From Cryptosporangium minutisporangium (GTDB lineage: Bacteria > Actinomycetota > Actinomycetes > Mycobacteriales > Cryptosporangiaceae), in contig NZ_BAAAYN010000043.1 in the NCBI RefSeq assembly GCF_039536245.1, positions 1-64,000 on the forward strand: a DNA stretch of 64,000 bases, in the 5' to 3' direction. The notes beneath the pieces were generated by a model. That model was not told the DNA's origin. It searched no databases and saw only the letters and a program-made list of their open reading frames with translations. Positions 34,340 to 37,073 of the stretch are shown one piece after another. Numbering within the stretch: the stretch's first letter is position 1; every line of letters begins with the position of its first letter. A program made the translations under genes and the position numbers.

Positions 34340-34554
34340 GTAAGGCCGACCTCCGAGCTGGGACACCACCCCTCCAGGATGACGCCCGTCCCGCGTCCCG
34401 CCACGTCCGGGTGGTGCCGCCGCTCGCGTCCGCGCTGGCCGACGCTCTGTTCTGCGAATGCGGAACATCTGCTGAACCGGACGCCGGGCCTTTCCGTGTG
34501 AAGGGCGTGGGCACCTCCGAAGCCCATCCGGGTGCGCCGGACTCAGGAGAACGA

Positions 34555-35370
34555 ATGCGTAAACAAGGTCGGTCAGGTTGGACTCTGGGCGTTGCCATCG
34601 GTGGTGTGACGCTCGCTCTGACCGGCGCGGCGATGGTGGGTGTTTCCTCCGCCAGTGAGGACTCCGAAACTGCGTCCGTGGGACAAATCACGTGTCCGGA
34701 CGTCGCCAGCCAGCTACCCGCCATTCCGGCCTCGGCGCAAGCCGAAGTCGATCGGAATCTGACGTTGCTGCAGACGCAGATTTCGGAAGCGCAGAATCGA
34801 TTGGAATCCACGGTCGGCCAAGGCGGCCCCAACTTCGTGCAGAACGCGATCCTCGGTCCACTGGCCTCGAAACGGGGTGCGGCGATCGACCGGATCGCGA
34901 TCGCGATCGGACGCACCGCCGCGCGTCCGGAGCTGCCGATCGCCGAACTCTCGACCTGCACCGTGGAGGAGGGCGGGGCCGCTCCGGCGACCACCGCACC
35001 CACGACCGAGGCGCCTGCGGCGCCGGAGACGTCCGCACCGGCTGCAGACGATGCGGATAACGGGGACGACGCTGCTGATCAGCGGATCTCGTGCCCCGAT
35101 GTGGAGAGTGAGCTGCCGGCGATCCCGGCGCAGGCCCAAGCGGAGGTGGAGCGCAATCTGGCGTTGCTCGACACGCAGATCAGTGAAGCCAACAACCGAC
35201 TTCTGACGTCCGCGGGAGAAGGAGGACCGAACTTCGTCCAGAACGCAATTCTAGGCCCGCTCGCTGATAAGCGAGGAGCCACCATCGACCGTATCCAGAT
35301 CTCGATCGGTCGACACGCCGCGCGTCCCGAGCTGGACGTCGCCGCGTTGTCGGTCTGTTCACTCGCCTGA
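34555..35370 (+). CDS. Secreted protein with two Cys-capped repeat domains (paralogue 1)
   Basis: 271 residues from ATG 34,555 (AGGAGA upstream). A short basic N-terminus (MRKQGRSGW) and one hydrophobic segment (~9-32) act as signal or anchor. Two homologous ~90-residue domains follow (~45-140 and ~180-271), joined by a Thr/Pro/Ala/Asp linker. Each domain begins with CPDV and ends with a Cys (STC, SVC), and contains PAIPA-AQAEV-RNL-LL-TQISEA and GGPNFVQNAILGPLA-KRGA-IDRI. The pattern suggests a helical bundle closed by one disulphide. No known family is recognised. The next gene (35,649-36,725) is a paralogue. Confidence 0.88.
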   Translation: MRKQGRSGWTLGVAIGGVTLALTGAAMVGVSSASEDSETASVGQITCPDVASQLPAIPASAQAEVDRNLTLLQTQISEAQNRLESTVGQGGPNFVQNAILGPLASKRGAAIDRIAIAIGRTAARPELPIAELSTCTVEEGGAAPATTAPTTEAPAAPETSAPAADDADNGDDAADQRISCPDVESELPAIPAQAQAEVERNLALLDTQISEANNRLLTSAGEGGPNFVQNAILGPLADKRGATIDRIQISIGRHAARPELDVAALSVCSLA

Positions 35371-35380
35371 GTCCGGACTT

Positions 35381-35480
35381 GCGGTTGCGCGGTCTGTGGC
35401 GGTCCGCGTGAACCAATCCCGGTCACCGGGTTCAGGCCTCCAGGGAGCATCGCCGGTTACCCCGCCGGCGGTGCTCCCTG
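35381..35480 (+). ncRNA. Candidate structured 3' element, copy 1
   Basis: Stem-loop 1: GGTT (35,383-35,386) pairs with AACC (35,411-35,414) and CGCG (35,388-35,391) with CGCG (35,405-35,408), around the 13-base loop GTCTGTGGCGGTC. Stem 2: CCCGG-TCA-CCGGG (35,418-35,430). Stem 3: a 40-base hairpin (35,441-35,480) with 15-17 pairs, terminator-like. Copy 2 behind the paralogue keeps the loop exactly while all stems differ in sequence. It could be a 3'-UTR element or a small RNA. Confidence 0.5.
35441..35480 (+). terminator. Terminator hairpin after paralogue 1
   Basis: CAGGGAGCATCGCCGG (35,441-35,456) pairs with CCGGCGGTGCTCCCTG (35,465-35,480), with one T:G position and an 8-base loop, followed by TGCAATTT. 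Confidence 0.75.
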
Positions 35481-35648
35481 TGCAATTTCGCGGACGGAAT
35501 TTAATGAGCCGGTTGACCCAAATCTTCATGGTTCCGCCGACTCACTATCTCTTTTCCCGATTTCGGTGAACCATCCCTCTCGTGGCGGAGTTCTCGATGA
35601 CGTGGGCGCATGGAGGCCCTTCCGGGTGCACGATTAGGGAGAGCGGAA

Positions 35649-36725
35649 TTGCGAAAGCAATCAGGACGGTCGGGGTGGGCGATAGGCGCGGCCGTGGGCG
35701 GAACCGCGATAGCGCTGACCGCCGCCGCCATGGTCGGCGTCTCGTCGGCGAGCATGAACTCGGACGCCACCGCGACGGTGAGCGCAACGGCCGACCCAGG
35801 GGCCGATCAGATCGTCTGTCCCGACGTCGCCGGTGAACTGACCGAGGTGCCCGCCCGGGCGCAGAACGAGGTCGCGCGCAACGTCGCGCTGTTGGAGATG
35901 CAGGTCGGCGAGGCACAGAAGCGGCTGGAGTCGACGGTCGGCCAGGGCGGCGAGAACTTCGTCCAGAACGCGATTCTGGGTCCGCTGGCTTCCAAGCGGC
36001 AGGCGGCGATCCAGCGCATCGAGATCGCGATCGGCCGAGTAGCCGATGCTCCGGACCTCGACGAGGAGGCGCTCGCGGAGTGCGCCGTCGAGGCGGCGGA
36101 CGCCGCTGCGGACCCCTCGGCGAGCGTCGATCCGTCGGCCACCGAGGACCCGGCCGCGACGGACGATCCCGCGGCCACCGACGACCCGGCAGCGACCGAC
36201 GACCCCGCAGCGACCGACGACCCGGCAGCTGCCGACGACCCGGCTGCGGACGACGCTGCGGCGGCCGAGCACCCGCCGGCGACCGACGATCCCGCTGCGA
36301 TGGACGACCCAGCGGCGACCGAAGATCCGGCCGCCGTGGAGGACCCGGCAGCCACCGAGGACCCGGCTGCGGATGCCTCGGCGTCCGCCGACCCCGGCCT
36401 GATCGAATGCCCGGACGTCGCGAAGTACGTGCCGGAGGCCGAGGTGCCCGAGGAGGCACAGGAGGCCGTAGACGAGAACATGGAGGCGCTGGCCGAGAAG
36501 GAAGCCGCAGCGGAGGACGCGCTGGCCGAGGCGGAGAACGCGGACGCCGCCTACGTCCAGGACAACGTTCTCGGCCCGCTGGCGATCCAGCGGGTGGCGA
36601 TCCTCGTCCGCATGGAGGTCGCCGTCGACAAGTACGACGCCGACAGCGGGAAGAGCGCGGCGAAGAATCAGCGCCAGGCCGTGCACACCGCCATCACGAA
36701 GCTCTCCGGCTGTTCGCTCGCCTGA
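35649..36725 (+). CDS. Secreted protein with two Cys-capped repeat domains (paralogue 2)
   Basis: 358 residues. I use TTG 35,649: AGGGAGAG lies just upstream and the first residues (M/L-RKQSGRSGW) then align with the start of paralogue 1. Signal or anchor ~9-32. Domain A (~55-145) starts IVCPDV, contains GGENFVQNAILGPLASKR and ends AECAV. A ~95-residue linker is built from degenerate Ala-Thr-Asp-Asp-Pro-Ala-Ala repeats. Domain B (~255-358) starts IECPDV, contains YVQDNVLGPLAIQR and ends SGCSLA, the same last four residues as paralogue 1. Domain B has diverged most. The gene probably arose by tandem duplication of its neighbour. Confidence 0.87.
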   Translation: MRKQSGRSGWAIGAAVGGTAIALTAAAMVGVSSASMNSDATATVSATADPGADQIVCPDVAGELTEVPARAQNEVARNVALLEMQVGEAQKRLESTVGQGGENFVQNAILGPLASKRQAAIQRIEIAIGRVADAPDLDEEALAECAVEAADAAADPSASVDPSATEDPAATDDPAATDDPAATDDPAATDDPAAADDPAADDAAAAEHPPATDDPAAMDDPAATEDPAAVEDPAATEDPAADASASADPGLIECPDVAKYVPEAEVPEEAQEAVDENMEALAEKEAAAEDALAEAENADAAYVQDNVLGPLAIQRVAILVRMEVAVDKYDADSGKSAAKNQRQAVHTAITKLSGCSLA

Positions 36726-36738
36726 GTGAGGCCGAGTT

Positions 36739-36764
36739 CCGCGGGGCCCGTACGGGCCCCGCGG
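36739..36764 (+). terminator. 26-base perfect palindrome after paralogue 2
   Basis: CCGCGGGGCCC-GTAC-GGGCCCCGCGG lies 13 bases after the stop. It is a fully self-complementary hairpin with no U-tract. Confidence 0.65.
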
Positions 36765-36780
36765 ACCGCCGGGAGGTGAT

Positions 36781-36881
36781 CGGACGGCGTGGTCTGTGGC
36801 GGTCCGCGCCGTACCGAACCCGGTAGCCGACTCGGGCTACGCAGGACGCACCGCCGGCCGGGGAAGCCGGCGGTGCGTCCT
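36781..36881 (+). ncRNA. Candidate structured 3' element, copy 2
   Basis: Stem-loop 1: CGG-ACGG-CGTG (36,781-36,791) pairs with CGCG-CCGT-A-CCG (36,805-36,816; one G:U pair, one bulged A) around the same 13-base loop as copy 1. Stem 2: GTAGCC (36,823-36,828) with GGCTAC (36,835-36,840). Stem 3: a perfect 16-pair hairpin (36,843-36,858 / 36,866-36,881) followed by TTCG. Nothing on the + strand follows it, so it is not a leader of a downstream gene. Confidence 0.5.
36843..36881 (+). terminator. 16-pair terminator closing copy 2
   Basis: AGGACGCACCGCCGGC and GCCGGCGGTGCGTCCT form a perfect stem with a 7-base loop, then a short T-run (TTCG). It is the strongest hairpin in the 348-base gap before the convergent small membrane protein. 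Confidence 0.85.
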
Positions 36882-37073
36882 TTCGCGTGAGGCGCGACCC
36901 CGCCGGTTCCGGGCGGACGGGGCCGCGCGAGATGAATACTGGCCCCTCGGAGGCCACTCAGCCGATACCTTGCGGTGTTGGGCGTATCCGCAGCAGCGTC
37001 CGCCCGCAGTCGCCGATGTGCCTAGCTGTCTTTTGTGCACTGTCCTATGTCACTGCAGTCCGGCCCGGCCGCC

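Follow-up and report, generated by a model that had tools for sequence, protein, structure and literature searches.

The window, meaning the whole stretch of 64,000 nucleotides that was analysed, comes from an actinobacterial genome of 9.23 Mb (G000), where it lies on contig C43. It contains two tandem paralogous genes, each followed by the same short sequence. The question is what has been conserved behind these genes, and what it does.

Gene A (34555–35370, + strand) and gene B (about 35649 to 36725, + strand) are open reading frames ending in UGA; the start of B is probably a TTG, as judged from the alignment of the leaders. Both proteins look secreted. They have in common a domain with about 60% identity, present in two copies in A, which is predicted to fold as a helical hairpin. 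No Pfam family was found for either protein, and a fold search of the PDB with the domains of A returned no significant match. The domain is common in Streptomyces, Amycolatopsis, Nonomuraea and Actinoplanes, and homologues occur in many Actinobacteria. In two paralogues from the same genus (L018 and L016), an A/B-type domain lies N-terminal to a second domain, which is DUF1996 (PF09362) in L018 and looks alike in L016; no Pfam model covers this N-terminal domain, which is widespread in Actinobacteria.

Orthologues of A and B are present in two congeners, G002 and G003. The fourth congener, G001, has neither the A/B pair nor a close orthologue of its upstream neighbour. In all three species with the pair, the 5' leaders of A (34501–34555) and B (35601–35650) have GGGC(n)GCCC-WUCCGGGUGC in common, apart from small changes, so that the tandem duplication of the A-B unit took in the 5' leader. 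The shared segment is possibly a leader RNA; the leader of A has no match in Rfam.

Structure and conservation of the elements

The first-pass annotation had described a 13-base loop borne by covarying stems behind both genes. The sequence GTCTGTGGCGGTC indeed occurs exactly twice in the window, at 35392–35404 and 36792–36804, both on the + strand, and with its flanking bases (GGTCTGTGGCGGTCC) it is found exactly at these two places only in the 9.23 Mb genome. The identity of the loops therefore stands, but not their size: in the RNA the outer G and C form the closing pair of a loop of 11 nucleotides (UCUGUGGCGGU), at 35393–35403 in copy 1 and 36793–36803 in copy 2. Both elements are found at the same two places, behind A and B, in G002 and G003. 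The six sequences thus available, copies 1 and 2 from three species of one genus, have the loop consensus UCUGUGGCGGY. They are identical over GG-UCUGUGGCGG-Y-CC except at Y, and the inner stem is nearly invariant. Four-fold degenerate sites in codons sharing their first two bases were taken as the neutral yardstick. Of these, 54% are invariant among the three species in A and 30% in B, and 9.4% (5/53) over all six sequences. With sites this variable, twelve invariant positions in a row are not expected by chance.

In the consensus fold of copy 1, a closing helix (P1), supported by pair counts, is formed by UGAGUCCGG (35368–35376), which includes the stop codon of A, and CCGGGUUCA (35426–35434). 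It encloses the P3 hairpin (GGUUGCGCGG / CCGCGU-G-AACC, 35383–35414) that carries the invariant loop. The CCGGG of the 3' strand of P1 has an alternative partner at 35418–35422, with which it forms a local hairpin (CCCGG-UCA-CCGGG, 35418–35430) in competition with P1. A terminator-like hairpin of 17 base pairs follows at 35441–35480. In copy 2, the 5' strand of P1 is UGAGU (36723–36727), which includes the stop codon of B and can pair with ACUCG (36830–36834). A strong hairpin, P0 (CCGCGGGGCCC-GUAC-GGGCCCCGCGG, 36739–36764), stands directly 3' of the gene and is kept in each species with a different sequence. The P2 helix, made of GCCGGG (36768–36773) and CCCGGU (36819–36824), supports the P3 hairpin (36780–36817) with basal strands UCGG and CCGA and the invariant loop, and a terminator-like hairpin is found at 36844–36881.

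The stems agree with the initial description, some finer points of which were modified. The second hairpin, at 35418–35430, is clear in copy 1 but missing from copy 2. AACC (35411–35414) does have alternative partners in copy 1, but the preferred one varies among the three species, so this does not amount to a conserved switch. Strong terminator-like hairpins do end both copies, but in this genome they lack a long U tract, and a search found no U-tracted terminator.

The covariation had been seen in the inner stem, as CGCG/CGCG in one copy and CGTG/CGCG in the other, and in differing outer pairs. The inner difference is a one-sided wobble between the two copies of the window and not a compensation. 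The two-sided changes lie in the outer pairs and become evident only with the orthologues: columns 6–8 of the alignment (A2) read UA/AU/CG, CG/UG/GC/UA and GC/AU/GU. Three core pairs have two-sided changes, with 94% of the cells paired compared with 27–45% when slid, and most pairs of the inner stem do not vary among the six sequences. As the covariation rests on few pairs in three species, its support alone is modest. The fold z-scores are −4.2 and −7.2 for copies 1 and 2, the terminators contributing. Some shuffle controls of the pair counts were weak, with 34/500 over all six sequences, in an alignment (A6) of trimmed pieces that was made by hand and is biased towards structure, and 325/500 for copy 1 alone.

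That a structured RNA element under selection is present in the 3' untranslated region of both genes, and that it is not an ordinary leader riboswitch, was borne out. Between copy 1 and B stands a terminator-like hairpin, and no convincing + strand gene was found downstream of copy 2. A small coding frame over the elements was also considered and discarded upon inspection, since the frames are not common to both copies and are broken by indels.

Two further features, one in copy 2 and one next to it, were noticed. GGAGGUGAUC at 36772–36781 matches, over 10 nucleotides, the complement of the 3' end of the 16S rRNA; it is not kept exactly in G002 and G003. Just 3' of copy 2, at 36890–36953, lies another GC-rich hairpin region (AGGCGCGACCCCGCCGG...GGGGCCGCGCGAGATGAATA) that is 93–98% identical at the same position in G002 and G003, with 41 consecutive invariant nucleotides. 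This region is essentially single-copy, with one weak partial second match, in G003.

Possible pairing around the stop codons

Each of the six tails has a conserved YUCAGG downstream that is able to pair with the UGA ending its gene. In copy 1, the consensus fold places the stop codon opposite the conserved YUCA within the closing helix, the fourth pair of which is G-U, G-C and A-U in the three species (one compensating pair). The helix between YUCA and the stop codon has 9, 9 and 9 base pairs in copy 1 and 5, 5 and 6 in copy 2, and is the longest available or tied for the longest in 6/6 tails. When the tails were shuffled, P values of 0.006–0.02 were obtained for copy 1 and of 0.14–0.35 for copy 2, where the helix, not significant by itself, is merely suggestive. 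Each element would thus resemble a domain that is closed by the stop-codon helix and has a terminator behind it. A pseudoknot between the UCUG of the loop and a downstream CAGG appeared possible upon inspection in 6/6 sequences. It was not retained, as both sides hardly vary and the CAGG overlaps the better-supported partner of the stop codon.

Distribution of the element

The first-pass annotation had made its proposal depend on further copies. A covariance model derived from these six sequences recovered the four orthologous copies of G002 and G003 and none elsewhere: searches of 61 relatives, 399 genomes from the order and 395 from the class yielded no true further member. The best outside matches are weak, with a loop that is missing or different. 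The fourth congener has no element; two exact motif matches in it (L033 and L034) lie outside any matching stem-terminator context. Likewise, no element was found near 80 homologous genes in other genera, the 3' untranslated regions of which mostly contain plain terminator-like hairpins. A scan of viral contigs gave one match, lacking the matching stem. A pattern scan of genome contigs gave none, which is weak evidence as the collection may not include the nearest relatives. At the gathering score, Rfam recognised only three tRNAs elsewhere in the window and no family for the element, and nothing was returned for the element at a permissive E-value. The presence in several lineages that would be expected of a conserved cis-encoded structured RNA was not observed, as the bearers are G000, G002 and G003, all from one genus. 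The element is thus well delimited, has no Rfam match and, within the searched range, belongs to one gene pair in one genus. The computation establishes its structure, the selection on its loop and this limitation.

Possible roles of the elements

In each of the three species the element follows closely on the stop codons of A and B, and in copy 1 the distance does not change. A loop that stays fixed while its stem varies, placed immediately 3' of both coding regions, is most readily interpreted as a recognition element of the 3' untranslated region. We infer that the element is transcribed, that its loop is recognised and that the mRNA is affected. The explanation ranked first, tentatively, is a lineage-specific, cis-acting regulatory domain that presents the loop and sets the stability or decay of the mRNA 3' end. 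From the stop codon on, the 3' untranslated region of each paralogue would contain a conserved RNA domain, in which a multi-part helix would support the P3 hairpin with its invariant 11-nucleotide loop ahead of a terminator hairpin. The domain would most likely act in cis, on the mRNAs of A and B. A trans-acting factor, probably an RNA-binding protein, may recognise the loop, and this recognition, together with pairing of the stop-codon region, would govern the stability or decay of the 3' end.

Ranked second, as possible but rather doubtful, is the release of the 3' untranslated regions as small RNAs, by processing or from an internal promoter, with the invariant loop as a seed pairing with other mRNAs. 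Conserved bases beyond those of the terminator have been described as one hallmark of such RNAs, the seeds of which typically comprise 8–10 conserved bases (PMC9438474), and the Streptomyces s-SodF is an Hfq-independent precedent (PMC7821165). The conserved stretch of 8–11 nucleotides ahead of the terminator resembles a seed of this type, and a terminator-like hairpin ends both copies. However, exact complements of the loop numbered 10, 9 and 12 in the three genomes, against 16, 10 and 24 for a reversed control, counting exact 11-mers only and including the elements themselves. The single complement site found in two species (G000 and G002) outside the elements and close homologues falls in a coding frame. 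A search by consensus found no sigma-70-type promoter, which is little informative in this phylum. As exact complements of the loop are not enriched, a small RNA is slightly disfavoured, and a cis or protein-bound role fits better than base-pairing. That the region only serves for elaborate termination and 3'-end protection, the loop being kept as an aid to folding or termination, is unlikely. The strong terminator-like hairpins after both copies would suit this function, and 3'-end protection by stable stem-loops is known from Streptomyces (PMC8269248), but the homologous genes of other genera manage with a single hairpin of free sequence, and an invariant 11-nucleotide loop across paralogues would not be needed.

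The pairing of the stop codon (UGAR with YUCA) in the closing helix leaves room for a further proposal, to which we give little credence: a switch in the 3' untranslated region coupled to translation termination. The terminating ribosome would melt the stop-codon helix, thereby freeing the CCGGG to form the local hairpin in copy 1 and altering the presentation of the invariant loop, and the fate of the mRNA would be a readout of ribosome traffic at the stop codon. Improbable, too, is an action at the DNA level, either as the binding site of a transcription factor or through extrusion of a single-strand hairpin. The elements are inverted repeats with a fixed centre, but their half-sites change in a compensatory manner around an unchanging spacer, where a dyad operator would show the reverse, and they are strand-oriented, always behind a stop codon.

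A selenocysteine insertion (SECIS) element, through which the UGA of A would be read as selenocysteine or SelB would be bound for regulation, is very improbable and was rejected. In all three species, a GGUCU does start 20 nucleotides behind the UGA of A, SelB and tRNA-Sec are encoded in the G000 genome, and the true fdhA SECIS of G003 has GGUCUG 18 nucleotides after its UGA. However, copy 2 lies 65–92 nucleotides from its stop codon, which is the wrong spacing, the read-through frame is broken in G003 by a 2-nucleotide indel, and the GGUCU lies partly in the stem and partly in the loop and does not form a small apical loop. SelB was found in G000 and G003, and tRNA-Sec in G000; in G002 no SelB passed the cut-off and no fdhA with a UGA was found, although the two elements are both retained. 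The use of selenocysteine is patchy in the genus, as SelB and a UGA-containing fdhA are present in G000, G001 and G003 and neither was found in G002.

A stem-loop whose loop has come through gene duplication as well as speciation, located 3' of two genes whose products seem to be secreted, makes a well-bounded candidate for a regulatory RNA of the 3' untranslated region in an actinobacterial lineage. In Staphylococcus, a genome-wide study found that most 3' untranslated regions diverge even within the genus (PMC7821165). The candidate is interesting, but its kind is not surprising. Both cis elements and small RNAs from 3' untranslated regions are supported by the literature (PMC7821165, PMC9438474). 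If the pairing of the stop codon is real, it would connect translation termination to the fate of the mRNA in a way that is open to direct testing.

Like the structured RNA families of Rfam, the element has a conserved secondary structure with compensating changes, though no family reaches its gathering score here. Bacterial SECIS elements of the fdhF/fdhA type likewise have a GGUCU hairpin about 20 nucleotides after a UGA, a likeness confined to copy 1; here the loop geometry is different and the element is retained in a species with no recognisable SelB. CpxQ and s-SodF also have a conserved stretch between stop codon and terminator (PMC9438474, PMC7821165), whereas here the conserved bases are in a hairpin loop, its exact complements are not enriched and processing is only putative. 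The precedent for the preferred cis-acting domain is the acnB gene of Escherichia coli, in which a stem-loop in the gene's own 3' untranslated region is proposed to be bound by apo-AcnB in an autoregulation and to control decay of the mRNA (PMC7821165). The two have no known sequence relation. In the present case two paralogues have the loop in common, and as their products appear to be secreted, autoregulation by the product is unlikely.
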